A DNA stretch of 34,627 nt from Paracoccaceae bacterium (lineage in GTDB: Bacteria; Pseudomonadota; Alphaproteobacteria; Rhodobacterales; Rhodobacteraceae). Shown in pieces: positions 15,063 through 29,041 of this stretch (position 1 is its first letter; each line of letters begins with the position of its first letter). A program made the position numbers and the translations under genes. The notes beneath the pieces were generated by a model that saw only the letters and a list, made by a program, of their open reading frames with translations, was not told where the DNA came from and made no database searches. The stretch is taken from positions 1-34,627 of the forward strand of contig JAFGVZ010000133.1 of the NCBI GenBank assembly GCA_016937725.1. Direction: 5' to 3'.

Positions 15063-15335
15063 TTATTCGATGATATTGCCGCGGAGGATGTAGCGGCAAT
15101 AGGCCACGGTCGAGATGAAGCCCATCATGGCAAACAGCATCGCCGCCTCGAAGAACACGCCGGTGCCAAAGGCCATGCCGTAGATCACGATCAGCGCGAT
15201 GATGTTCACGACCATCGTGTCGAGCGCGAGAATCTTGTCGCCCGTGCTGTCGGCGCGCACAAGGAACCACAGGTTCATCAGCAGGCCCAGCCCGAAACAA
15301 ACGGCTGCGAAAACCAGAGCATAGGTCAGGATCAT
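15063..15335 (-). CDS. mrpF: Mrp antiporter subunit F
   Basis: 90 aa; 'DKILALDTMVVNIIALIVIYGM' MrpF pattern; operon position. Confidence 0.92.
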   Translation of the reverse strand: MILTYALVFAAVCFGLGLLMNLWFLVRADSTGDKILALDTMVVNIIALIVIYGMAFGTGVFFEAAMLFAMMGFISTVAYCRYILRGNIIE

Positions 15336-15823
15336 TCAAAAATCTCCTTCAGGCGGCGCTCGTAGCGGGATTTGATGTCATGCACCGTGCCGGCTGGGTC
15401 CGGCGCATGCAGGCAATGCACCAGCAGGCTGTTACCATCCTCGGCAAGGTCGGCCGAGACGGTGCCCGGTGTCATTGTAATCGTGCCCGCCAGCAGCGTG
15501 ATCGCTTCGGGCCTGCGGAGTTCCAGCGGCACGGTGATGAAGGCGGATTGCAGGTCTGCGTTGCGCTTGAACAGGATAATCAAGGCCACTTGCACATTGG
15601 CCACGCAAATGTCCCACAGCACGATCAGGATATACCCGATGATTCCAAGTGGATTGCGCAGCTTTGGGCGGTCCGGCCAATAGGCAGCCGTCACCAGCGG
15701 CACGATGGTGCCTAGAATCAGGCCAAAGACCACCGCGTTCAACGTCAGCACATTGACCAGCATGACCCAGACAGCGGTCAGAACCAACGTCAGCAGCGGA
15801 TGGGGGAAAAGTTTACTGAGCAT
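15332..15823 (-). CDS. mrpE: Mrp antiporter subunit E
   Basis: 163 aa; 'LLAGTITMTPGTVSADLAEDGNSLLVHCLHAPDP' MnhE signature; 4-bp overlap with mrpF. Confidence 0.94.
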   Translation of the reverse strand: MLSKLFPHPLLTLVLTAVWVMLVNVLTLNAVVFGLILGTIVPLVTAAYWPDRPKLRNPLGIIGYILIVLWDICVANVQVALIILFKRNADLQSAFITVPLELRRPEAITLLAGTITMTPGTVSADLAEDGNSLLVHCLHAPDPAGTVHDIKSRYERRLKEIFE

Positions 15824-15826
15824 GGC

Positions 15827-17332
15827 TTAACTCCCCCCACCCAGAACCGCGCCGATATAGCCCTCTGGCGCGTAGAGCTGCGCTGCCGTATCGGTCAGGT
15901 AATCGGTCAACGGTCCTGCGGCGACGGTCATCAGCACGATCAGCGCCAACAGCCCCCCCACACCCGCCAACGCGACACCGGTGGCCGGGGCGGCGGGCGT
16001 TGCGTCTGCCTTCACCGCGTGGGCCTTCCAGAACACCACTGACCCGGCCTGCGCAAAGCCCACAACGGCCACCAACGATGTGATCAGCACCACGCCCCAG
16101 ACCCAAACGGACAAGGGATGATCGCGCAGCGCGTCCAGCACGAACAGTTTGCCAATGAAGCCCGACAAAGGCGGCAGGCCGGTTGTGGCAATGGCGGCGG
16201 CGAAGAACAGCGCAGCCACCAACCCCGATTGCACGATCGGCGCGCGCAGTTCCAGCGCGCAGGTTCCGCGCCGCGCCTGAACCATGTCGATCACGAGAAG
16301 CAACGCGCCCGCTGCAAGCGTGGAATGGATCAGGTAGTAAAGGGCGGCCACGGTCGCGCCCTCGGTGAAGGGGGCGATGGCGATGAACAGTGTTCCCATG
16401 GACCCGACAGCCGCAAAAGCCGCCACCCGCGCGAGCGAACCGCCCGCCATGACACCAACCATGCCGACCACGGCCGTGATTAGGGCTGCGGGCATGATCA
16501 GGTCCGAAAACAATGTCCCTGTCAGCGCCAATGACGGGCCGAAGATTAGCGTGAACACCCGCAAAACTGCATAGGCCCCAACCTTTGTCATAATGGCAAA
16601 CAACGCAGCCACGGGCGCAGGCGCATGAGTGTAGGTATTGGGCAGCCAGAAATGCAGCGGCAACAGCGCGCCTTTCACGGCGAAGACCAGCAGCACCATC
16701 GCGCCTGCCGTGCGCACCAATGCGGCATCTTCCGGCGGAAGCGTCGCGGCCTTGGCGGCCATATCCGCCATGTTCAGCGTGCCGAAGACCGCATAGATCG
16801 TGGCCAGCGAAAACACGAACAGGGTCGAGCCTGCCAAGTTGTAGATGATATATTGCACCCCCGCCTGCGTCCGCAAACGACCGCCGCCATGGACCATCAG
16901 GCCATAGCTTGCGATCAGCAGCACCTCGAAGAAGACGAACAGGTTGAAGATGTCACCCGTCATCATCGCGCCGAACAGACCGAAGAGCTGGAACTGATAC
17001 AGCGGGTGGAAATGCGCGCCGCGCGCGTCCCATTTCGTGCCGATGGAATAGATCAGCACGCCCAAGGCCAGCAGCGCGGTCAGCGTAATCATCAGCGCCG
17101 ACAGCCGGTCCATGACCATCACAATACCAAAGGGCGCGTCCCAATTGCCCATCTTGTAGACGGTGATCTCGCCGGTCGCGGCCTGCACCATGAGCATGGC
17201 GCAGATGACGGCCAGAACCGCCGTGGTCACCAGTGACAGCGTGCGCTGAATGGCCAATTGATCTCGGAACAACAAAAGCGCCGGGGCCATGACCGCCGTG
17301 ATGATCAGCGGCAAAACCATGAAATGCGTCAT
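15827..17332 (-). CDS. mrpD: Mrp antiporter subunit D
   Basis: 501 aa; proton-translocating NuoN/M family; 'VKGALLPLHFWLPNTYTHAPAPVAALFAIMTKVGAYAVLRVF'. Confidence 0.93.
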   Translation of the reverse strand: MTHFMVLPLIITAVMAPALLLFRDQLAIQRTLSLVTTAVLAVICAMLMVQAATGEITVYKMGNWDAPFGIVMVMDRLSALMITLTALLALGVLIYSIGTKWDARGAHFHPLYQFQLFGLFGAMMTGDIFNLFVFFEVLLIASYGLMVHGGGRLRTQAGVQYIIYNLAGSTLFVFSLATIYAVFGTLNMADMAAKAATLPPEDAALVRTAGAMVLLVFAVKGALLPLHFWLPNTYTHAPAPVAALFAIMTKVGAYAVLRVFTLIFGPSLALTGTLFSDLIMPAALITAVVGMVGVMAGGSLARVAAFAAVGSMGTLFIAIAPFTEGATVAALYYLIHSTLAAGALLLVIDMVQARRGTCALELRAPIVQSGLVAALFFAAAIATTGLPPLSGFIGKLFVLDALRDHPLSVWVWGVVLITSLVAVVGFAQAGSVVFWKAHAVKADATPAAPATGVALAGVGGLLALIVLMTVAAGPLTDYLTDTAAQLYAPEGYIGAVLGGGS

Positions 17333-17685
17333 TGGCCGCGCTCCTCTGGCGTGACCTCTGGGGCCTCGTTCTCCATGTCCAGCTTATCGGTGCCGCCATT
17401 CAGATAGGCCGTCAGCGCCATGATGACCGCGACCGCCGTCATGCCGAAGGCGATCACGATGGCGGTCAGCGTCAGGGCTTGCGGCAGCGCGTCGGTATGC
17501 GGGCTATCCACATACAGAAGCGGCGGCGAATTCAGCATCAACCGTCCGCTGGCGAACAGGAAGAAGTTCACCGCATAGGCCAGCAGCGACAAGCCCACGA
17601 TAACCGGAAAGGTCCGCATCCGCAGCATCAGGTAAGTGCCCACCGCCGTCAACGATCCGATAATGATTGCAACCAGTAGTTCCAT
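17329..17685 (-). CDS. mrpC: Mrp antiporter subunit C
   Basis: 118 aa from MELLVAIIIGSLTAVGTYLMLR; NuoK-like; ATGA overlap with mrpD. Confidence 0.92.
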   Translation of the reverse strand: MELLVAIIIGSLTAVGTYLMLRMRTFPVIVGLSLLAYAVNFFLFASGRLMLNSPPLLYVDSPHTDALPQALTLTAIVIAFGMTAVAVIMALTAYLNGGTDKLDMENEAPEVTPEERGQ

Positions 17686-17689
17686 GATC

Positions 17690-20539
17690 TTAGCTATCCT
17701 TGGTGGCAGAGCGGATCGCGCCGCCATCCGTGACAATATCCATCGGGTCGGTATTGACCGGCTGATCGGGGTCGGCAGCCACGCCCATGCGCGACAACTC
17801 CGCCAGCGCCAGCATGACCGCGCCCAGAACCGTCAGGAACACGCCCACGTCAAACGCCATGGCTGACGCCAGTTCGAATTTCGACAGGGGCGGGATGGTG
17901 ACATAGCCAAAGGTGCTTTTCAGGAACGGGTAGCCAAAGAACCAGCTTGCAATGCCCGTGGCCGCCGCCGTCAGAATGCCCACCGCGATCATGCCGTGAT
18001 AGGCAAAGCGCTGGCGCGATTGCGCCCATTCAAGCCCCGATGCCATGTATTGCATCAGCACCGCGACCGCAACGACCAGACCGGCGATGAACCCGCCGCC
18101 CGGCTGGCTATGCCCGCGCAGGAAGATGAACGCGCCCACCACGATCGCAATGGGAAGCACCGCGCGCGTGGCCACGACCATCATCAGCGGGTGGCGGTCG
18201 CCGATCTTGACATGGTCCTTCGCCATCTCGCGCAGGCGCTTGCCGCCCGCGCTGCGCATAAGCGCCGCGACCATGGCGAAAATCGAAATGCCTGCAATGC
18301 CCAGAACGATGATCTCGCCAAACGTATCAAAGCCGCGGAAGTCGACAAGGATCACGTTCACCACGTTATTGCCCCCACCGCCGGTGTAGGAGTTCTCCAG
18401 GAAATACCAGCCGATATTGTCGGGCTCGCGCCGCAGAAGCGCATACATCAACGCGCCAATCCCAAGGCCCGCCCCTGCCCCGATCACCGCGTCGCGCGTG
18501 CGCCGGGCGGGGCTGCTTTCCTTGGGCGTTTCCTTGGGGAGGAAATACAGTGCGAGCAACAACAGGATGACCGTCACCACCTCCACCGACAATTGCGTCA
18601 GGGCCAAGTCGGGCGCGGACAGGTAGGCAAAGGCGACCGACAAGATAAGCCCCACCACGCCCATCAATACCAGCGACAGGTAGCGGTTGCGGTGTAGGAA
18701 CGCCAAGGCAGTCGTCGGCACCATGATCAGCACGAAACCAATGATCGAGGCATTGGTCATGGGCAACATGGGCCGTGCGCCTTGCAGGTAATCGGCGCTG
18801 AAAAACGCACCCGCCACGATCACCACGCAAGCGGCGGTGAAAATGGCCAAGTAGCGCGACATCGCCCCGTCATGCAGCAAGTCGGTAAACCACGTGAAGA
18901 ACCGGGTAATTCCACCCAACAAAGCGTCGAAAATCGCCTTCGCCTCTGGCCGGGGGGCGGCGATCCACGCACGGTCCAGCCCCTTGTGCAGCAACAGCAG
19001 CACAGCGCCCGTGGCGACCGCGATCATCGACATGATCAGCGCCGCATTTACCCCGTGCCACAGCGCAAGCGAATAATAAGGCAGCTCATCCGCCTGCGTC
19101 ACGGCTTTCGACACGGTTTCGACCAAAGCGCCCGCCATGGTTTTCGGGAACAGACCGATCAGAATGACCAGCACTGCCAAGAACGCAGGCGCAACCCACA
19201 TCCCAAAGCCCGGATCATGCGGCTTGGCCGGATAGTCGTCGCGCTTCGGGCCAAAGAACACATGGAACACGAAGCGCAGGCTATAAGCGACAGAGAAGGT
19301 CGCCGCGATGGTCGCCATGACCATGAACAGGGTCGAGGTATGCGCGGCCTCGTGCAGCATCATTTCCTTGGACAAGAACCCGTTGAAGGGTGGCAGGCCC
19401 GCCATGGAAAACGCGGCAATCGTGCCGATGGTAAAGGTCACGGGCATCAGGAACCGCAAGCCGCCAAGACGTTTGATGTCGCGAGTCTTGGCCTCGTGGT
19501 CGACGATCCCGGCTGTCATAAACAGCGCCGCCTTGAAGGTCGCGTGGTTAATGATGTGGAATACCGCCACCACCGCCGCAATCTCGGTGCCTAGCCCCAA
19601 AAGCATGGTAATCAGGCCCAAATGGCTGACGGTCGAAAACGCCAGCAGGCCTTTCAGATCATCCTTGAACAGCGCGATCACCGCACCCAGCGTCATGGTG
19701 ATTAGCCCCGCGCCCGCCACAAGGTAAAACCACAGGTCGGTGCCCGACAGCACTGGCCATAGCCGCGCCATCAGGAACAGGCCCGCTTTGACCATCGTGG
19801 CCGAATGCAGATAGGCCGAGACGGGCGTGGGCGCGGCCATGGCGTGCGGCAGCCAGAAATGGAACGGGAATTGCGCGGATTTGGTGAAGGCGCCCAGCAG
19901 GATCAGCAGCAGCGCGGGCACATAGAGATCGCTTTCCTGAATAACCTCGCGGTTTTCCAAGATCACGGTCAGGTCGTAGCTGCCCGCGATATTGCCAAGG
20001 ATCAGCATCCCCCCGATCAGCGCCAAGCCGCCCATGCCGGTCACGGTCAGCGCCATGCGCGCACCTTGGCGACCTTCGGGCAGGTGCTTCCAATAGCCGA
20101 TCAGCAGGAAGGACGACAGCGAGGTCAATTCCCAGAAAATGAGCAAAAGCAGGATGTTGTCGGACAGAACGACCCCCACCATCGCGCCTTGGAACAGCAG
20201 CAAATAGGTGTAGAACTGATCCATCGGGTCGCTTTTATACAGGTAAAAGCGCGCGTAGATGATGATCAGCAGCCCGATCCCAAGGATCAGCCCGGCGAAC
20301 ATGAAGCCCAAACCGTCAAGGAAGAAATTTACGTTCAGCCCCAGCGCGGGCAGCCATTCAAACCGGGCTTGCACCACCTCTCCATTCAGCACGGCGGGCA
20401 GGTGCGACAGCAAGCCCAACAGGGCCAGCAATGTCACCGCGCCGGTGGCTGTGGCGCAGGCATTGCGCCCAGCGCGCAGCATCAGGCCGGGAAGGAGCGC
20501 GCCCAGAAAAGGAAGCGCTGCGATCAGGGCAAGAGACAT
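17690..20539 (-). CDS. mrpA: Mrp antiporter subunit A with C-terminal MnhB-like region (PhaAB type)
   Basis: 949 aa; NuoL-like N-terminus 'AQFPFHFWLPHAMAAPTPVSAYLHSATMVKAGLFLMARL', C-terminal 'GHSQPGGGFIAGLVVAVAVLMQYMASG' (MnhB signature). Confidence 0.94.
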   Translation of the reverse strand: MSLALIAALPFLGALLPGLMLRAGRNACATATGAVTLLALLGLLSHLPAVLNGEVVQARFEWLPALGLNVNFFLDGLGFMFAGLILGIGLLIIIYARFYLYKSDPMDQFYTYLLLFQGAMVGVVLSDNILLLLIFWELTSLSSFLLIGYWKHLPEGRQGARMALTVTGMGGLALIGGMLILGNIAGSYDLTVILENREVIQESDLYVPALLLILLGAFTKSAQFPFHFWLPHAMAAPTPVSAYLHSATMVKAGLFLMARLWPVLSGTDLWFYLVAGAGLITMTLGAVIALFKDDLKGLLAFSTVSHLGLITMLLGLGTEIAAVVAVFHIINHATFKAALFMTAGIVDHEAKTRDIKRLGGLRFLMPVTFTIGTIAAFSMAGLPPFNGFLSKEMMLHEAAHTSTLFMVMATIAATFSVAYSLRFVFHVFFGPKRDDYPAKPHDPGFGMWVAPAFLAVLVILIGLFPKTMAGALVETVSKAVTQADELPYYSLALWHGVNAALIMSMIAVATGAVLLLLHKGLDRAWIAAPRPEAKAIFDALLGGITRFFTWFTDLLHDGAMSRYLAIFTAACVVIVAGAFFSADYLQGARPMLPMTNASIIGFVLIMVPTTALAFLHRNRYLSLVLMGVVGLILSVAFAYLSAPDLALTQLSVEVVTVILLLLALYFLPKETPKESSPARRTRDAVIGAGAGLGIGALMYALLRREPDNIGWYFLENSYTGGGGNNVVNVILVDFRGFDTFGEIIVLGIAGISIFAMVAALMRSAGGKRLREMAKDHVKIGDRHPLMMVVATRAVLPIAIVVGAFIFLRGHSQPGGGFIAGLVVAVAVLMQYMASGLEWAQSRQRFAYHGMIAVGILTAAATGIASWFFGYPFLKSTFGYVTIPPLSKFELASAMAFDVGVFLTVLGAVMLALAELSRMGVAADPDQPVNTDPMDIVTDGGAIRSATKDS

Positions 20540-20683: not shown

Positions 20684-22210
20684 TCAGGCGGCAGGCGCAG
20701 GGGCGATTTTCGGCCCCGTGCCGTGGCGTTCGCGCTGAAGCGTGCGGAAATGCGCAATCTCGGAATGGGTCCACGCCGCAATGTCCCATGTGCGCGCCGA
20801 CCGGCGAAGCGCGGCCATACGCGCGCTGGCCTCTTCCATACCCATGGCCAGCGCTTGCTCCAACCCGGAATCCATCGACGAATGCGAAAACGGGTTCACG
20901 GGGATGGCGCCGTCCAGTAGCACTGCGCAGCCCGCAAATTCCGACAGGATGAGCGCGCCGGGATTGGTCAGATCGCGCGCGGCGCAGAATTCCGACGCCA
21001 CAAGGTTCAGCCCATCGGCCAAGGGCGTAATAGACGCAATATCGGCGGCGCGGTAATAGGCCACAAGCTGCGCCAGAGGAATCGCTTGGCTGACCAGCGT
21101 CACCGGTTGCCAATCGAAGCTGCCGAACGTGCCGTTAATGCGCCCGACAAGCGATTCAATCGCCTCCTGCACCTCGGCATAGGCGGTCATGTTGCGGTTT
21201 GCCCCGACCGAAACCAGCATCAACCGCACCTTGCCGCGCAGGTCGGGGCGGCGCTCTAACAAGCGCCCGAAGGCTTCCAATTGTTCGATATTGCCTTTGG
21301 TGTAATCCGTGCGCGACACCGACAGGATCAGCTTCGTGTCGCCCAGTTCGGCGCGGATTTCCCGCACCCGCTCGGCCACTTCGGGCTTGTTCGCCAATTT
21401 TTCGATATAGTCGAAATTCACCCCCACCGGGTTGGTGTGCACGCAGGTTGTCGCCCCCATATGCTCCAGCATCAGCGGCATGCGGCGGTCATTCAGCGCC
21501 ACGCCCGTGGCAGACAGCGTGCTGGGCGTTTCCGCCTCTGATACCAGCCGCGCGCCCTTGATGGACCGCACGACGGCGGCAAAATTCTGAGCATAGCGCG
21601 GAATGTGAAAGCCCACGCTGTCGCAGGTCATCAGGCTGTTGATGATCTCTTCGCGCCACGGCAGCACGTTGAACATATCCGGGCCCGGAAAGGGCGTGTG
21701 GTGGAAAAAGCAGATCGTGGCGTTGGGTTTTAGCTGGCGCAGATAGCCCGGCACCAGCCACAAGTTATAGTCATGAATCCAGATCACGGCATCATCTGTG
21801 GCCTGCTGTGCGGCGGCTTCTGCAAACAGCCAGTTCACCGCGCGGAAGGTTGGCCAATCGACCGGGTCGTAATTATAGCGTTCCTTGAAGCCGTGCAGGA
21901 TAGGCCAGAAGGCTTCTTTACTGGTCACATGGTAGAAGCTTTTGACCTGTTCCTTGGTCAAAGGCAGCCGACTGACCGAATAAGTGCCAAAACTGTCCGA
22001 AATTTCGATCACGCGCTCGAATTCCGGGTTGGCAGGGTCTTCGGCCTCTTTCCACGCCACCCAAGCACCGCGATCCGCCTGCCCCAAAAACCCTTTCATC
22101 GTTGGCACAATGCCGTTCGGGCTGGAGTTTTCGCGGTAATGCACCTTCCCGTCCTCGATCACCTCCTCGTAAGGTTGGCGATGGTAGACGATTACAAGAT
22201 CCGATTTCAT
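20684..22210 (-). CDS. ggpS: GT20 glycosyltransferase, likely glucosylglycerol-phosphate synthase
   Basis: 508 aa; 'SDLVIVYHRQPYEEVIEDGKVHYRENSSPNGIVPTMKGFL', 'SFYHVTSKEAFWPILHGF', 'IWIHDYNLWLVPGYLRQLKPNATICFFHHTPFP', 'RTDYTKGN' match remembered cyanobacterial GgpS far better than OtsA ('VVSNRI', 'GGL', 'RLDYSKG'). Confidence 0.82.
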   Translation of the reverse strand: MKSDLVIVYHRQPYEEVIEDGKVHYRENSSPNGIVPTMKGFLGQADRGAWVAWKEAEDPANPEFERVIEISDSFGTYSVSRLPLTKEQVKSFYHVTSKEAFWPILHGFKERYNYDPVDWPTFRAVNWLFAEAAAQQATDDAVIWIHDYNLWLVPGYLRQLKPNATICFFHHTPFPGPDMFNVLPWREEIINSLMTCDSVGFHIPRYAQNFAAVVRSIKGARLVSEAETPSTLSATGVALNDRRMPLMLEHMGATTCVHTNPVGVNFDYIEKLANKPEVAERVREIRAELGDTKLILSVSRTDYTKGNIEQLEAFGRLLERRPDLRGKVRLMLVSVGANRNMTAYAEVQEAIESLVGRINGTFGSFDWQPVTLVSQAIPLAQLVAYYRAADIASITPLADGLNLVASEFCAARDLTNPGALILSEFAGCAVLLDGAIPVNPFSHSSMDSGLEQALAMGMEEASARMAALRRSARTWDIAAWTHSEIAHFRTLQRERHGTGPKIAPAPAA

Positions 22211-22986
22211 AGCGGCAACTCCGGTGGGGTTGGGTGCAAGGTATGGGCATGGATGGCCTCTATGATCCCGCCCGCGCCGATCTGGCGGCAGCGATGGGCC
22301 CTCGGCAAATGCGCGGTCGCGGCAAGCAATTCGGGCTCCGATCCGCCCACAAGCGCGCCGTGCAGCCCGGTTTCGAACATGGACAGATCGTTGAGCGTGT
22401 CGCCTGCTACTAGCACCTGTTCGGCATTCAGCCCAAGATGAGAGATCAGGCGCAGAAGCGACGGGCCCTTGCTGACACCCTTGGGTAGCACATCGACAAA
22501 GCACCCGTGCGAGACGATGATATCGACCTCCAGCCCGTCCAGAACCGACAAAGCGGCGCGGTCGAACGCGCTGTTGTATTCATAGGACAGGCGATGACGA
22601 AAGGGCGCATCTTGCAAGCGCAGACCTGTCACAGACTCAAGCCGCGCCCGAATCTCGGCATCCAGCCCATGCCACGCTTGCGCGATCGGCGCTTCCAGAT
22701 CGGGGAGCGGGTGCACGCGACCATCGGTAAAACTTGCGATAGTCGTCCCGACATCGCCAATCACAAATTCCGGCGAAGGCACATCACCCTTGGCGCATAA
22801 ATCTGCAATAAAATCCGGGTCACGCCCGGTAACGAAGACAAGCTGCACATCGGGTTGCGCGCGCAGCCATGAATAAAGCAGGTTTCGATGCGTGGCGCTG
22901 CCGCCCAGAAAGGTTCCGTCAAGGTCGGTCGCCAGCACCATGCGGGTGCTTTGCCCGGCGATGGGGCGTTTCGATAAAATTTCCAT
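22207..22986 (-). CDS. HAD-IIB sugar-phosphatase, likely glucosylglycerol-phosphate phosphatase
   Basis: 259 aa; 'LATDLDGTFLGGS', 'FVTGRDPDFI', 'GVSKGPSLLRLI', 'VAGDTLNDLSMFE'; 4-bp overlap with ggpS. Confidence 0.8.
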   Translation of the reverse strand: MEILSKRPIAGQSTRMVLATDLDGTFLGGSATHRNLLYSWLRAQPDVQLVFVTGRDPDFIADLCAKGDVPSPEFVIGDVGTTIASFTDGRVHPLPDLEAPIAQAWHGLDAEIRARLESVTGLRLQDAPFRHRLSYEYNSAFDRAALSVLDGLEVDIIVSHGCFVDVLPKGVSKGPSLLRLISHLGLNAEQVLVAGDTLNDLSMFETGLHGALVGGSEPELLAATAHLPRAHRCRQIGAGGIIEAIHAHTLHPTPPELPL

Positions 22987-23062: not shown

Positions 23063-23089
23063 AAGGCCGCCCATAATCTGAGCGGCCTT
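23063..23089 (-). terminator. Rho-independent terminator downstream of the cold-shock gene
   Basis: AAGGCCGC...GCGGCCTT inverted repeat; minus-strand 3' side TTTGTTTT. Confidence 0.75.
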
Positions 23090-23121: not shown

Positions 23122-23328
23122 TCAGGCGAGTGCCAGGTTCGACGCGGATTCGCGGCCGTCGCGGCCTTTTTCCAGATCGAAGGTCACTTTCTGACCATCA
23201 TCCAGACCGCGCAGACCAGCGCGCTCAACAGCGGAAATGTGCACGAACACATCCTTGGAACCGCCATCGGGTTGAATGAAGCCAAAACCTTTGGTTGCGT
23301 TGAACCATTTCACGGTGCCAGTAGCCAT
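23122..23328 (-). CDS. CspA-family cold-shock protein
   Basis: 68 aa MATGTVKWFNATKGFGFIQPDGGSKDVFVHISAVERAGLRGL... with RNP1 'KGFGFI' and RNP2 'DVFVHI'. Confidence 0.97.
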   Translation of the reverse strand: MATGTVKWFNATKGFGFIQPDGGSKDVFVHISAVERAGLRGLDDGQKVTFDLEKGRDGRESASNLALA

Positions 23329-23490: not shown

Positions 23491-24474
23491 TTAGCCAAAT
23501 TGCGCCACCCGCGCGGCCATATCCAGCATGCGGCACGAAAAGCCCCATTCGTTGTCATACCAGCCGAACACACGCAGCATCCCGCCTTCGGTTTGCTGCG
23601 TCTCTGGCAGCGCCATGACAATGCTTTCCGGGCGGGCCCGCAGATCGGTCGACACGAGCGGCCTGTCCGTCCAGCCAATAACACCGCCGGCCTGTTGCAG
23701 CGCAGCGTTCACCTCGGCCACACTCGGGCGGCGATCCAGCATTACGCACAAATCGACCGCTGAAACCGATGCTGTCGGCACCCGCACCGCCGCACCCAGC
23801 AAACGCCCTTCCATTTCGGGCAAGACCCGCTCGACCAGCTTTTGCGCGCTGGTCGTGGTCGGCACCATCGACAGCGCCGCGGCGCGCGAACGCGCCAGAT
23901 CACCGCGCGGCGCGTCGACCGTGGGCTGGCTACCGGTGTAGCAATGCACCGTGGTCATAAACCCCGTGGCAATGCCCCAGTGATCGTGCAGGAACTTGGC
24001 CAATGGTGCCAGCGCATTCGTCGTGCAGGACGCGTTCGAGATCAGCTCATGCGCAGGCGTCAGGACATGATCATTCGCCCCAAGCACCACCGTGACCTCT
24101 GCCGCGTCAGAGGGGCCGGAAATCAGCACCCGCCGCGCACCTGCCCGTATACCCCGACGGGCCACCTCTGTCCGGTCGGCGCGGCCCGTGCATTCCATGA
24201 CAAGGTCAATATCGGACAGGTCCAGCTCTGACAGGTCAGACTTGTGTGTCAGGCGCAGCGTCGTATCGCTAACACGAAACTGACCGTCCCCGGTGGAAAC
24301 CGGATGCGCTAACCGGCCGAAAACACTGTCATATTCGAACAGGTAAGCGCAGGTCTCGGCATCTGCGATGTCGTTGATTGCGACGATCTGCACATCCGGC
24401 CAACCGCCTTGAAGCCAAGCCCGTAGCACCGTCCGCCCGATCCGGCCAAAGCCGTTGATCGCCACGCGTATCAT
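23491..24474 (-). CDS. gap: Glyceraldehyde-3-phosphate dehydrogenase-like protein (type I, divergent)
   Basis: 327 aa; 'INGFGRIGRTVLRAWL', catalytic 'SNASCTTNALAPLAKFLHD', 'WYDNEWGFSCRMLD'. Confidence 0.9.
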   Translation of the reverse strand: MIRVAINGFGRIGRTVLRAWLQGGWPDVQIVAINDIADAETCAYLFEYDSVFGRLAHPVSTGDGQFRVSDTTLRLTHKSDLSELDLSDIDLVMECTGRADRTEVARRGIRAGARRVLISGPSDAAEVTVVLGANDHVLTPAHELISNASCTTNALAPLAKFLHDHWGIATGFMTTVHCYTGSQPTVDAPRGDLARSRAAALSMVPTTTSAQKLVERVLPEMEGRLLGAAVRVPTASVSAVDLCVMLDRRPSVAEVNAALQQAGGVIGWTDRPLVSTDLRARPESIVMALPETQQTEGGMLRVFGWYDNEWGFSCRMLDMAARVAQFG

Positions 24475-24540: not shown

Positions 24541-25503
24541 CTAGAGCGCGACCTCTATCGCCGTGCCATTGGCGCGTGCCAGATCGACTGCCTTAGACGC
24601 TACGGCAATGTCCTGCAAGCCAACGCCGGTGCCATCGAACAGCGTGATTTCATCGACACTGCTGCGCCCCGCATGCGTGCCATTGATAACCGCACCGATG
24701 GGGGTGATATCCTCTGCCGTGATCAACCCTTGGGCAATCGCATGCTGCGCCTCGCCAATGGTGATGGATTGCGCGACCTCGTCGGTGAACACGGTCGCGC
24801 GCACCAGAAGCGCCGGTTCCACCTCTTGCTTGCCGATCGTGTCGGTGCCCATGCAAGCAATATGCGTGCCGGGACGGACATGCGCATCCATCAGGCTGGC
24901 GGCGGGGCTGGATGTGATTGTGATGATCACATCTGCCTGCGCGCCCAGATCTTCCAGGCTTACTTCCTCGAAAGGCAGCCCTTCTTCGGCCACGGCGGCG
25001 GCCAAACGGTCCATCATGTCGGGGTGGTAGTTCCACGCCACGACCTTTTCAAATTTACGCTGGCGCAGGGCTGCGCGCATCTGGAACACCGATTGGTGGC
25101 CCGCACCGATCATGCCCAAAACCGATGCGTCGGGCCGCGACAGATGCGCAATGGAAATGGCGGAGGCCGCCGCCGTGCGCAAAGCTGTCAGCAGGTTGCC
25201 GCCCACGGCCGCTTGCAAAATGCCCGTGTCGGGGTCGAACAGGAACACCGTGGATTGGTGGTTGATGATGCCTTTCGCGGCATTGCCGGGGAAATACCCC
25301 CCAGCCTTCACACCCAACTGGCCACCGGCGCGGTCCAGACCGGATTTGAAGCCATATTGCCGCCCTTCGCCCAGCGCCTCGCGCACAACGGGAAAGTTAT
25401 AGGCATCTTCCCGCGCCATGGCGGCAAAGGTGGCTTCAACAGCGTCGAACGCGCTTTGGTCATCGACTAGCCCGCCAATGGCGGATTCGGGCACGATCCA
25501 CAT
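24541..25503 (-). CDS. bhcD: Iminosuccinate reductase (ornithine cyclodeaminase/mu-crystallin family)
   Basis: 320 aa; OCD-family Rossmann 'ASVLGMIGAGHQSVFQMRAALRQRKFEKVVAWNYH', 'GTHIACMGTDTIGKQEVEP'; AGGAGG RBS; fourth gene of bhc cluster. Confidence 0.9.
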   Translation of the reverse strand: MWIVPESAIGGLVDDQSAFDAVEATFAAMAREDAYNFPVVREALGEGRQYGFKSGLDRAGGQLGVKAGGYFPGNAAKGIINHQSTVFLFDPDTGILQAAVGGNLLTALRTAAASAISIAHLSRPDASVLGMIGAGHQSVFQMRAALRQRKFEKVVAWNYHPDMMDRLAAAVAEEGLPFEEVSLEDLGAQADVIITITSSPAASLMDAHVRPGTHIACMGTDTIGKQEVEPALLVRATVFTDEVAQSITIGEAQHAIAQGLITAEDITPIGAVINGTHAGRSSVDEITLFDGTGVGLQDIAVASKAVDLARANGTAIEVAL

Positions 25504-25540
25504 GGGACAGCCTCCTGTAAGTTCTGTTCGCAGAGGAAGA

Positions 25541-25562
25541 GGCCCCGGATCAAGTCCGGGGC
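25541..25562. repeat. Palindrome GGCCCCGG-ATCAAGT-CCGGGGC (bhcC-bhcD gap, copy 1)
   Basis: Arms GCCCCGGA 25542-25549 / TCCGGGGC 25555-25562; same family as 1860-1886. Confidence 0.8.
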
Positions 25563-25580
25563 GCGGAGAGAGAGTGCTCA

Positions 25581-25603
25581 GGCTCCGGACCTGATCCGGA
25601 GCC
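25581..25603. repeat. Palindrome GGCTCCGG-ACCTGAT-CCGGAGCC (bhcC-bhcD gap, copy 2, opposite orientation)
   Basis: Arms GGCTCCGGA 25581-25589 / TCCGGAGCC 25595-25603; reverse complement has ATCAGGT spacer like the other copies. Confidence 0.8.
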
Positions 25604-25623
25604 TCGCGGTCATCTGGGCCGGG

Positions 25624-26787
25624 TTAGTATGCCTTGCCGCGCGCGCTGACGGGCCAGACGGTTTCGACCTTGCCATTCCGCACGCCGACATACCAGTCGT
25701 GCACGTTGCAGGTCGGGTCGCAATGGCCGGGTACCAGTTTCAGCTTGTCGCCCACTTTCAGCACACCTTCTGGGTCCGCGACCACGCCATGCTCGTCCGA
25801 GCATTTGACGTATTTCACATCGTCACGGCCATAAATCACCGGCAGGCCGCTATCGACCGATTGCGCTTTCAAACCGGCATCGACAATCGCTTTGTCGGCT
25901 TTTGCGTGGCTCATGACCGAGGTCAGGATGAACAGCGCATTCTCCCACTCGCTCTGGTCAATGCGCTTGCCGTCCTTGTCGAGGATGCGACCATAATCGG
26001 CATCCATGAACGCGTAGGAACCGCACTGAAGCTCGTTATACACGCCCGAATTCGATTCGAAGTAATACGACCCGGTGCCACCGCCGCCGACGATGTCGCA
26101 TTCCAGCCCTTCGGCCTTCAGACCCTCGACCGCGTCACGCACCATCCCGATGGCGATATCGACCTTGGCCTTGCGCTCGTCGTAGCTGTCCATGTGCTGC
26201 ATCGCGCCCTGATAGGCTTGGATGCCCGCAAATTTCAGACCCTCAGCGGCATCCACCGCCTTGGCAATCTCGATCACGGCTTCGGTGGTTGTCACACCGC
26301 AGCGGCCCGCGCCGCAGTCAATCTCGACCAAGCATTCGATCTGTGTGCCATGCTTGACCGCCGCCGCCGACAGGTCGGCCACATTGGTCACGTCATCCAG
26401 ACAGCAGATCGCGCGCGCGCCCAGTTTCGGGATGCGCGCCAAACGGTCGATCTTGGCCGGGTCGCGCACTTGGTTCGAGACCAACACGTCCTTGATGCCG
26501 CCACGTGCGAAAACTTCCGCTTCGGACACCTTCTGGCAGCAAACGCCACAAGCGCCGCCAAGCGACTCTTGCAGCTTGGCCACATCCACGGATTTGTGCA
26601 TCTTGCCATGCACGCGGTGACGCATGCCGTGTTCGCGGGCATAGTCGCCCATTTTCTTGATGTTGCGCTCCAGCGCGTCCAGGTCCAGCACTAGGCAGGG
26701 CGTCTGGATATCCGCTTCGTCCATCCCCGGCAGCGCGGGAACGTCAAAGCCAACTTCAAGCCCTTCGAATTTCGTCGGTGCGTTCAT
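25624..26787 (-). CDS. bhcC: beta-hydroxyaspartate aldolase (DSD1/D-threonine aldolase-like fold type III PLP enzyme)
   Basis: 387 aa; 'IQTPCLVLDLDALERNIKKMGDYAREHGMRHRVHGKMHKSVDVAKLQ', 'CHVHDWYVG'-like C-terminus 'GHCDPTCNVHDWYVGVRNGKVE'; cluster context. Confidence 0.92.
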   Translation of the reverse strand: MNAPTKFEGLEVGFDVPALPGMDEADIQTPCLVLDLDALERNIKKMGDYAREHGMRHRVHGKMHKSVDVAKLQESLGGACGVCCQKVSEAEVFARGGIKDVLVSNQVRDPAKIDRLARIPKLGARAICCLDDVTNVADLSAAAVKHGTQIECLVEIDCGAGRCGVTTTEAVIEIAKAVDAAEGLKFAGIQAYQGAMQHMDSYDERKAKVDIAIGMVRDAVEGLKAEGLECDIVGGGGTGSYYFESNSGVYNELQCGSYAFMDADYGRILDKDGKRIDQSEWENALFILTSVMSHAKADKAIVDAGLKAQSVDSGLPVIYGRDDVKYVKCSDEHGVVADPEGVLKVGDKLKLVPGHCDPTCNVHDWYVGVRNGKVETVWPVSARGKAY

Positions 26788-26809
26788 TTTGTTTACCCCT
26801 GTTGTTCGG

Positions 26810-27781
26810 TCAACCTGCCATCCAAGGCAGCTTGTCCAGATCCACGTTGCCCCCCGTCACGATCACGCCGACACGTTTGCCGCGGAACACTTCGGGGTTC
26901 TTTATGATGGTCGCCAGCGGCACAGCGCAGGACGGTTCCATCACGATTTTCATGCGCGCCCAAGTCAGGCGCATCGCGTCGATGATTTCCTCTTCCGTCG
27001 CGGTCAGGATATCGGTCACATTGTTCGACACAAAATGCCACGTGTTTTCTTTCAGCGGCACTTTCAACCCATCGGCGATGGTATTGGGAGAATCGTCTGC
27101 AATGATATGTCCTGCCTTGAAGCTGCGATAGGCGTCGTCCGCCTGTTCGGGTTCTGCGGCATAGATCTCGACATGCGGCGCGATGTTGGACAGCGTCAGG
27201 CAGCAGCCCGACACCATGCCACCGCCGCCGATGGGCGCGATCACGGCATCCAGCCCCTCGACCTGTTCCATCAATTCGCGCGAGCAGGTGGCTTGGCCTG
27301 CGATCACGCGCGGGTCATTATAGGGATGCACGAAATCCGCCCCGGTGCGCGCCTGCACTTCGGCAAAGACCGCTTCGCGCGAGGTGGTCGACGGTTCGCA
27401 TTCGGTAATCGTGCCACCATAGCCGATCACAGCGTCTTTCTTGGCCTGCGGCGCGGTGCGCGGCATGACCACATGGCACGGAATGCCCCGACGCCCGGCC
27501 GCATAGCTGAGCGACAAGGCATGGTTGCCACTGGAATGGGTAGCAACGCCAAGGGCGGCTTCCTCATCGCTCAGGCCGAACACGGCGTTCGACGCGCCGC
27601 GCACCTTGAAGGCACCGGCTTTCTGGAAATTCTCGCATTTGAAGAACAGGTCTGCCCCGGTCAACTTGTTCATGAATTCCGAGGTCAGGATCGGTGTGCG
27701 ATGGATATAGGGCTTGATCCGTTCATGCGCGGCGATCACGTCATCGAATGTCGGAAGCGGTCTTTCGGCTTGGTCTTTCAT
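26810..27781 (-). CDS. bhcB: beta-hydroxyaspartate dehydratase (threonine/serine dehydratase family)
   Basis: 323 aa from ATG 27781 (GGGGGTG upstream); 'FKCENFQKAGAFKVRGASNAVF' PLP-lysine motif, 'SSGNHALSLSYAA', 'IGGGGMVSGCCLT'. Alternative GTG start at 27826. Confidence 0.92.
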   Translation of the reverse strand: MKDQAERPLPTFDDVIAAHERIKPYIHRTPILTSEFMNKLTGADLFFKCENFQKAGAFKVRGASNAVFGLSDEEAALGVATHSSGNHALSLSYAAGRRGIPCHVVMPRTAPQAKKDAVIGYGGTITECEPSTTSREAVFAEVQARTGADFVHPYNDPRVIAGQATCSRELMEQVEGLDAVIAPIGGGGMVSGCCLTLSNIAPHVEIYAAEPEQADDAYRSFKAGHIIADDSPNTIADGLKVPLKENTWHFVSNNVTDILTATEEEIIDAMRLTWARMKIVMEPSCAVPLATIIKNPEVFRGKRVGVIVTGGNVDLDKLPWMAG

Positions 27782-27802
27782 GTCACCCCCTGATGTTGCG
27801 AG

Positions 27803-27841
27803 GCCAGTGGTAGCAGGCGGTTTCACCTTGCCACCACTGGC
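27803..27841. other. Large imperfect hairpin in the bhcA-bhcB intergenic region
   Basis: 9-bp perfect outer stem GCCAGTGGT (27803-27811) / ACCACTGGC (27833-27841). Confidence 0.6.
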
Positions 27842-27850
27842 GATGTATCT

Positions 27851-29041
27851 TTAGGCAGCCTTGGCGATTGCTTCTGCGGTTGTGCCACGAAGATAGTCCT
27901 GCGCGGCGGCAACGCCACTGCCAAGCTTCACGGGCCAGCCCAGATCGGCCATACACATTTCGGCCGTGGCCAGACCTGCCAGCAGCATGGCATCTGTCAG
28001 GCTGCCCAGATGGCCAATACGGAACAGCTTACCCGAAACTTCGCCCAAGCCAACACCGAAGGCCACGCCGTATTTGCTGGCGGACAGCGTGACAAGGTCG
28101 GTGCCGTTGAAGCCTTCGGGGGCCATGACTGCGCTGACAGTGTCGGAATACAGCTCCGGCCGTGCGGCACAAAGCTTCAGCCCCCAACCGCCCGCAGCGC
28201 GGCGCGTCGCCTCTGCCAAGCGGTGATGACGGGCATAGACATTGTCCAAGCCTTCCGCTTTCAGCATGGCGATGCTGGCGGCCAGACCGTTGATCAGGCC
28301 GACGGGCGGCGTATAGGGGTAGCCCCCAGCCGCATAGCCTTTCAGCATATCGCCGAAATCGAAGAAAGTGCGCGGCAGTTTCGCGGTGTCGCGTGCCGCC
28401 AGCGCCTTGGGCGAGATTCCCAGAATGGCTAGGCCAGCAGGCAGCATGAACCCCTTTTGCGAGCCCGCGACCGCGATATCGACGCCCCAAGCGTCCATAT
28501 GAAACGGCATGGAGGCTATCGAGCTGACGCCATCGACCATGAACAGTGCCGGGTGACCAGCCTTGTCCATCGCGGCGCGCAGCGCGCCAATGTCAGAGCG
28601 CACGCCGGTTGCGGTCTCGTTGTGCGTGGCCAGAACGGCCTTGATGGAATGATCCTTGTCGGCAGCCAGCGCCGCGCCCATGGCGTCTGCCGGGCAGCCT
28701 TCGCCCCATGGGGCTTCGATGATCTGCACGTCCAGGCCATGACGTTGGCACAGGTCAATCCAGCGGTGGCTGAACATACCGTGGCGTGCGGCCAGAACCT
28801 TGTCACCCGGCGACAGCGTGTTGCTGATCGCGGCTTCCCAGCCACCCGTGCCGGTCGAGGGCAGGATGATCACCTCTCCCGCGCTCATGCCAAGCACTTC
28901 TTTCACACCCGCAACGGCGGGCTTGAACACCGCCGCGAAAGCAGGCGAACGGTGGTCGATTGTTGGCATGTCACAAGCCTTGCGCAGGCTTTCGGGCATG
29001 TTGGTCGGGCCGGGAATAAAAACCGGGTTTTGCAAGGACAT
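27851..29041 (-). CDS. bhcA: Aspartate-glyoxylate aminotransferase (class V, Ser/Ala-glyoxylate aminotransferase-like)
   Basis: 396 aa; 'NPVFIPGPTNMPESLRKACDMPTIDHRSPAFAAVF', 'VDGVSSIASMPFHMDAWGVDIAVAGSQKGFMLPAGLAILGIS' PLP-lysine motif. Confidence 0.92.
   Translation of the reverse strand: MSLQNPVFIPGPTNMPESLRKACDMPTIDHRSPAFAAVFKPAVAGVKEVLGMSAGEVIILPSTGTGGWEAAISNTLSPGDKVLAARHGMFSHRWIDLCQRHGLDVQIIEAPWGEGCPADAMGAALAADKDHSIKAVLATHNETATGVRSDIGALRAAMDKAGHPALFMVDGVSSIASMPFHMDAWGVDIAVAGSQKGFMLPAGLAILGISPKALAARDTAKLPRTFFDFGDMLKGYAAGGYPYTPPVGLINGLAASIAMLKAEGLDNVYARHHRLAEATRRAAGGWGLKLCAARPELYSDTVSAVMAPEGFNGTDLVTLSASKYGVAFGVGLGEVSGKLFRIGHLGSLTDAMLLAGLATAEMCMADLGWPVKLGSGVAAAQDYLRGTTAEAIAKAA

Follow-up and report, generated by a model that had tools for sequence, protein, structure and literature searches.

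The two genes studied here, encoding a HAD phosphatase and a GT20 glycosyltransferase, are very probably an operon that makes the compatible solute glucosylglycerol, an unfused form of a known pathway. Both lie on the minus strand of the window, i.e. the whole analysed stretch of 34,627 nucleotides from a Paracoccaceae bacterium. The candidate phosphatase gene ggpP (HAD-IIB, S6PP-type glucosylglycerol-phosphate phosphatase, 259 aa, 22207..22986) runs from an ATG at 22986 to a TGA ending at 22207, and the candidate synthase gene ggpS (GT20 glucosylglycerol-phosphate synthase, 508 aa, 20684..22210) starts with an ATG at 22210 and ends at 20684. Stop and start share an ATGA overlap of 4 bp (22207..22210, minus strand), which is kept in nearly all same-genus loci and by which the two genes are probably translationally coupled. 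The positions, gene order and overlap given in the earlier note are thus exact, and the N-terminal stretch quoted there, MKSDLVIVYHRQPYEEV...GKVHYRENSSPNGIVPT, is found in the 508-aa protein; the 606-aa GTG ORF of the mechanical list is the same GT20 frame extended upstream into the HAD gene. Upstream, between ggpP and a cold-shock protein gene (csp), a terminator-like stem-loop of 11 pairs with a T-rich tail (23063..23089, minus strand, a consensus match only) suggests that ggpP-ggpS may be a transcription unit of its own, with terminator-like sites across the region overall occurring at a frequency near chance.

In the proposed route, GgpS would be a retaining transferase that takes glucose from a nucleotide-glucose, ADP-glucose being the most likely one, and places it on sn-glycerol-3-phosphate, and GgpP, the adjacent HAD phosphatase, would then strip the phosphate to give glucosylglycerol, a nitrogen-free sugar-glycerol osmolyte which protects cells against salt. 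We infer the acceptor, the donor, the product and the role of the pair in salt tolerance from the sequence evidence below. The probable glucosylglycerol osmolyte synthesis put forward in the earlier note gains support from the HMM, tree and residue results for the GT20 protein, together with the likeness of the HAD protein to the phosphatase half of GgpPS. The points we count against it are the donor-loop changes, the lower TIGR02398 scores, the missing gpsA linkage and the HAD protein staying under equivalog cut-offs.

By curated HMM, tree and diagnostic residues, the GT20 protein is a predicted GgpS. It reaches 599.4 bits against TIGR02398, the GgpS equivalog of NCBIfam (cut-off 569), whereas it fails the OtsA model TIGR02400 with 384.5 bits (cut-off 564.85) and stays below the cut-offs of all NCBIfam models of bifunctional trehalose enzymes. 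The TIGR02398 scores in the window's genus are about 575-608, compared with about 650-713 for other full-length alphaproteobacterial proteins. The closest named relative is from Roseibaca sp. Y0-43, with 96% identity. NCBI labels the relatives 'ggpS: glucosylglycerol-phosphate synthase', contrary to the earlier expectation that such a protein would usually be auto-annotated as trehalose-6-phosphate synthase. The tree built from 72 GT20 proteins places the window protein among 62 GgpS and apart from 10 OtsA, E. coli OtsA among them, with an SH-aLRT of 100 for the split; the tree was made by a quick method, has long OtsA branches and is without cyanobacterial sequences, for which the TIGR02398 profile serves as stand-in. 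The phylogenetic check that had been proposed therefore comes out on the GgpS side, and clustering with OtsA did not occur. The tree has one group with all alphaproteobacterial GgpS used and a second with the fused proteins of gammaproteobacterial type. Also placed inside the alphaproteobacterial group, on a long branch, is a divergent GgpS from outside Alphaproteobacteria (L047, G422); its upstream HAD is a poor match, and the locus may be arranged differently or have a HAD frame that is broken.

The residues agree with this classification of the GT20 protein as GgpS-type and not OtsA. At 16 positions, the 62 GgpS share a (near-)invariant residue that hardly ever occurs in the OtsA set; in window numbering, these include Y9-H10, N32, I34, P36, K98, N149, W151, R205 and M341. 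In M. thermoresistibile OtsA, the acceptor is contacted by Arg18, Tyr90, Asp144, Gln146 and Arg324, and the donor by Arg286, Lys291, Asp385 and Glu393 (PMC6879718). The donor residues are all kept in the window protein as R300, K305, D399 and E407, and the donor-site catalytic residues are likewise present, including G33 and H171 (roles from PMC6879718). In the C-terminal domain, the Arg that contacts the acceptor glucose-6-phosphate (M. thermoresistibile Arg324, in E. coli R300) is found in 10/10 OtsA, while the same position holds Asn, Ala or Ser in 62/62 GgpS and N338 in the window; the remark that the protein lacks OtsA hallmarks is borne out here.

On the HMM, the tree, the residues and the failure to find any PF02358 trehalose phosphatase (OtsB family) in the own assembly, which is 85% complete and in which absences are weak, we reject the assignment of the pair to the OtsA/OtsB trehalose pathway. 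It is highly improbable that the GT20 protein makes trehalose-6-phosphate and the HAD protein dephosphorylates it: the GT20 fold and family and the donor-site residues are indeed common to both, but the protein falls short of the OtsA models by some 180 bits or more and exceeds the GgpS cut-off, it stands in a separate clade with the acceptor Arg gone, the phosphatase is of the PF05116 S6PP type and not PF02358, and the gpsA linkage of the relatives, described below, also speaks against it.

At the position of mycobacterial OtsA Val363, which is part of the ADP-glucose preference of that enzyme (PMC6879718), the window protein has Ile377, most alphaproteobacterial GgpS have Ile or Val, and E. 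coli OtsA has Phe; Ile377 is weakly consistent with ADP-glucose as the predicted donor. The donor loop at codons 398-406 (window 20993-21019) reads PLRDGLNLVAKE in gammaproteobacterial and many alphaproteobacterial GgpS and PLADGLNLVASE in the window's genus. The substitutions R->A398 and K->S406, relative to both gammaproteobacterial GgpS and the OtsA set, are genus-wide (same-genus loci L003-L026), and the counterpart of the Arg in mycobacterial OtsA is Arg384, which contacts allosteric effectors (PMC6879718). Taken together with the absence of linked gpsA, this genus-wide loss of the donor-loop Arg and Lys could mean that regulation or specificity is altered in the GgpS of Roseibaca and Roseinatronobacter, which we regard as unlikely; if true, these salt-lake bacteria might have a GgpS no longer under metabolite control, or one whose donor or acceptor is shifted.

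The HAD protein matches PF05116 (S6PP) with 138.9 bits (threshold 20.3), and its best solved relative by sequence is the cyanobacterial sucrose-phosphatase 1s2o. HAD motifs I-IV are all present, with DLDGT at 21-25 (D21xD23), VTGR at 52-55 (T53), K173, and GDTLND at 195-200. The protein shares 34-37% identity with the N-terminal half of GgpPS-type fusions, and can be regarded as a putative separate version of the phosphatase half that gammaproteobacteria have within GgpPS. It passes no equivalog cut-off in NCBIfam. The cyanobacterial GgpP family TIGR02399 gave no match for the window HAD and none in the 36 genus genomes, a search run without a positive control.

The pairing of the two genes is kept in almost all related alphaproteobacterial loci. 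Two genome sets, which overlap, gave 127 loci in total: in 117 of them GT20 is directly preceded by the HAD gene and in five the HAD part is fused to its N-terminus, while four are cut by a contig edge and one is unclear; all five fused cases lie outside Alphaproteobacteria, in other classes of the same phylum. The -4 overlap is retained through nearly the whole genus. The phosphatase-then-synthase order is not chance, and two parts that are neighbours in one lineage but a single fusion in another strongly suggest sequential steps of one pathway. The description of the pair as unfused but ordered as in GgpPS thus stands for the order and the separate ORFs, but the arrangement is not particular to this genome, being the normal alphaproteobacterial layout. 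That the HAD gene is an unrelated housekeeping phosphatase gene upstream by chance, with another enzyme dephosphorylating glucosylglycerol-phosphate, would fit the missing equivalog match, but is extremely improbable given that it is next to GT20 or fused with it in practically every one of the 127 loci, that its product shares 34-37% identity with the phosphatase half of the fused proteins, and that, as far as a search without positive control can tell, the genus lacks a cyanobacterial-type GgpP.

As for the distribution of the synthase, GT20 matches over the cut-off are found in 28 of 60 genomes (own included), comprising 27 of the 36 of the window's genus and one from another family. In wider samples ggpS is sporadic, with 14 of 385 genomes of the class and 12 of 399 of the phylum. 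The closest loci belong to genomes and MAGs of Roseibaca and Roseinatronobacter, most of which stem from saline and soda lakes. A scan of viral contigs found no relatives. In addition, a record titled Microbacterium excoecariae (L073) carries a typical alphaproteobacterial gpsA-ggpP-ggpS operon with 64% identity, and may be contamination or a mislabelled genome.

Of 82 related loci checked, three are too short to judge; in 58 of the other 79, the HAD gene is immediately preceded by gpsA, which codes for the NAD(P)H-dependent glycerol-3-phosphate dehydrogenase, a confirmed member of the NF000942 family. For example, operons on plasmids in Dinoroseobacter shibae (pDSHI02) and Falsirhodobacter algicola begin with gpsA, followed by HAD and ggpS. 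A gpsA or glpD gene near ggpS is also known from some cyanobacteria (PMC6753628). Among the 21 loci without gpsA, 14 belong to the Roseibaca/Roseinatronobacter/Rhabdonatronobacter group and have a GAPDH gene on the upstream side instead. One gpsA is retained elsewhere in 34 of the 36 genus genomes, the own genome also having one, and this single gpsA kept in the genus is the housekeeping copy. The linkage in the relatives points to glycerol-3-phosphate as the probable acceptor, for which it is the best indirect evidence.

The same linkage bears on whether the pair could make another phosphorylated glucoside, such as glucosylglycerate from 3-phosphoglycerate, after specificity drift in the clade. 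We consider this very improbable, because the third gene conserved across the wider clade is gpsA, whose product makes glycerol-3-phosphate, because the GT20 protein scores over the GgpS equivalog cut-off, and because GpgS (glucosylglycerate synthase), which we take to be of a different, GT81-type family, has no match over the cut-off in the genus. What can be said for it is that the donor-loop substitutions are specific to the clade, that the S6PP/MPGP phosphatase superfamily takes in glycerate-type phosphatases, and that the nitrogen-free solute of D. shibae is given as alpha-glucosylglycerate/alpha-glucosylglycerol (Kleist et al. 2017, as cited in PMC9062515). We also count this statement for the glucosylglycerol reading, D. 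shibae having a GgpS of 61% identity, and the coupling of the two solutes against it, no single product being singled out in the citing passage. Turning back to glucosylglycerol as the expected product, the own genome has glgC (ADP-glucose pyrophosphorylase) over the cut-off and only one GT20 protein. EctB is not found over the cut-off in the own 85%-complete assembly and is present in 30 of the 36 genus genomes.

The neighbouring genes are all on the minus strand. The cold-shock protein gene (23122-23328) lies between ggpP and the GAPDH gene (23491-24474), the latter scoring 344 bits against a type I cut-off of 367 and being conserved in the genus at the place where other Rhodobacterales carry gpsA. 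Further upstream, bhcA-bhcB-bhcC-bhcD (24541-29041) make up a complete beta-hydroxyaspartate cycle set, each over its NCBIfam equivalog cut-off. Directly downstream of ggpS are genes for the A, C, D and E subunits of an Mrp/Pha-type monovalent cation/H+ antiporter (15332-20539). We rejected a functional tie between ggpS and the antiporter, as it is not conserved: only some of the close relatives have MrpA after ggpS in the same direction.

On the whole, the analysis adds a widespread alphaproteobacterial form (Rhodobacterales, Hoeflea and others) to a pathway described mainly from cyanobacteria and a few gammaproteobacteria, and the gpsA-ggpP-ggpS operon would provide a simple genomic marker for marine and soda-lake heterotrophs able to make glucosylglycerol. 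It changes no concept. The chemistry is well known, many relatives from the sea share the pair, and the ggpS name is already in the NCBI annotation of relatives. Our literature search for an alphaproteobacterial ggpP-ggpS or gpsA-ggpP-ggpS operon gave gene-list mentions only, which is no proof of absence, and the literature searched yielded no biochemistry of the window GT20 or its clade. Paraoceanicella profunda is listed with a glucosylglycerol-phosphate synthase (PMC7002103).

Among the known systems, it is established that cyanobacteria keep the two genes separate and that some heterotrophs have a ggpPS fusion (PMC10873239, PMC6753628). The gammaproteobacterial GgpPS of Pseudomonas, Stenotrophomonas, Azotobacter and Marinobacter (PMC10873239) matches the window pair in its two domains and in their order, with identities of 41-42% for GT20 and 34-37% for HAD between the window and GgpPS-type fused homologues, but it is one fused gene, whereas the window has two separate genes with a 4-bp overlap. 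The cyanobacterial GgpS and GgpP (Synechocystis sll1566 / slr0746) are encoded by separate genes (PMC10873239), as in the window, and the synthase also belongs to TIGR02398; unlike them, the window genes are adjacent and overlapping, and the phosphatase has no TIGR02399 match. OtsA/OtsB likewise consist of a GT20 synthase and a HAD phosphatase, often in one operon, but differ from the window pair in GT20 clade, acceptor residues and HAD family. On the D. shibae plasmid pDSHI02 and the F. algicola plasmid, the HAD gene adjoins ggpS, so named by NCBI, in the same way as in the window, with GgpS identities of 61% and 69% respectively; the difference is that these two operons start with gpsA, while the window's genus is without the linked gene.
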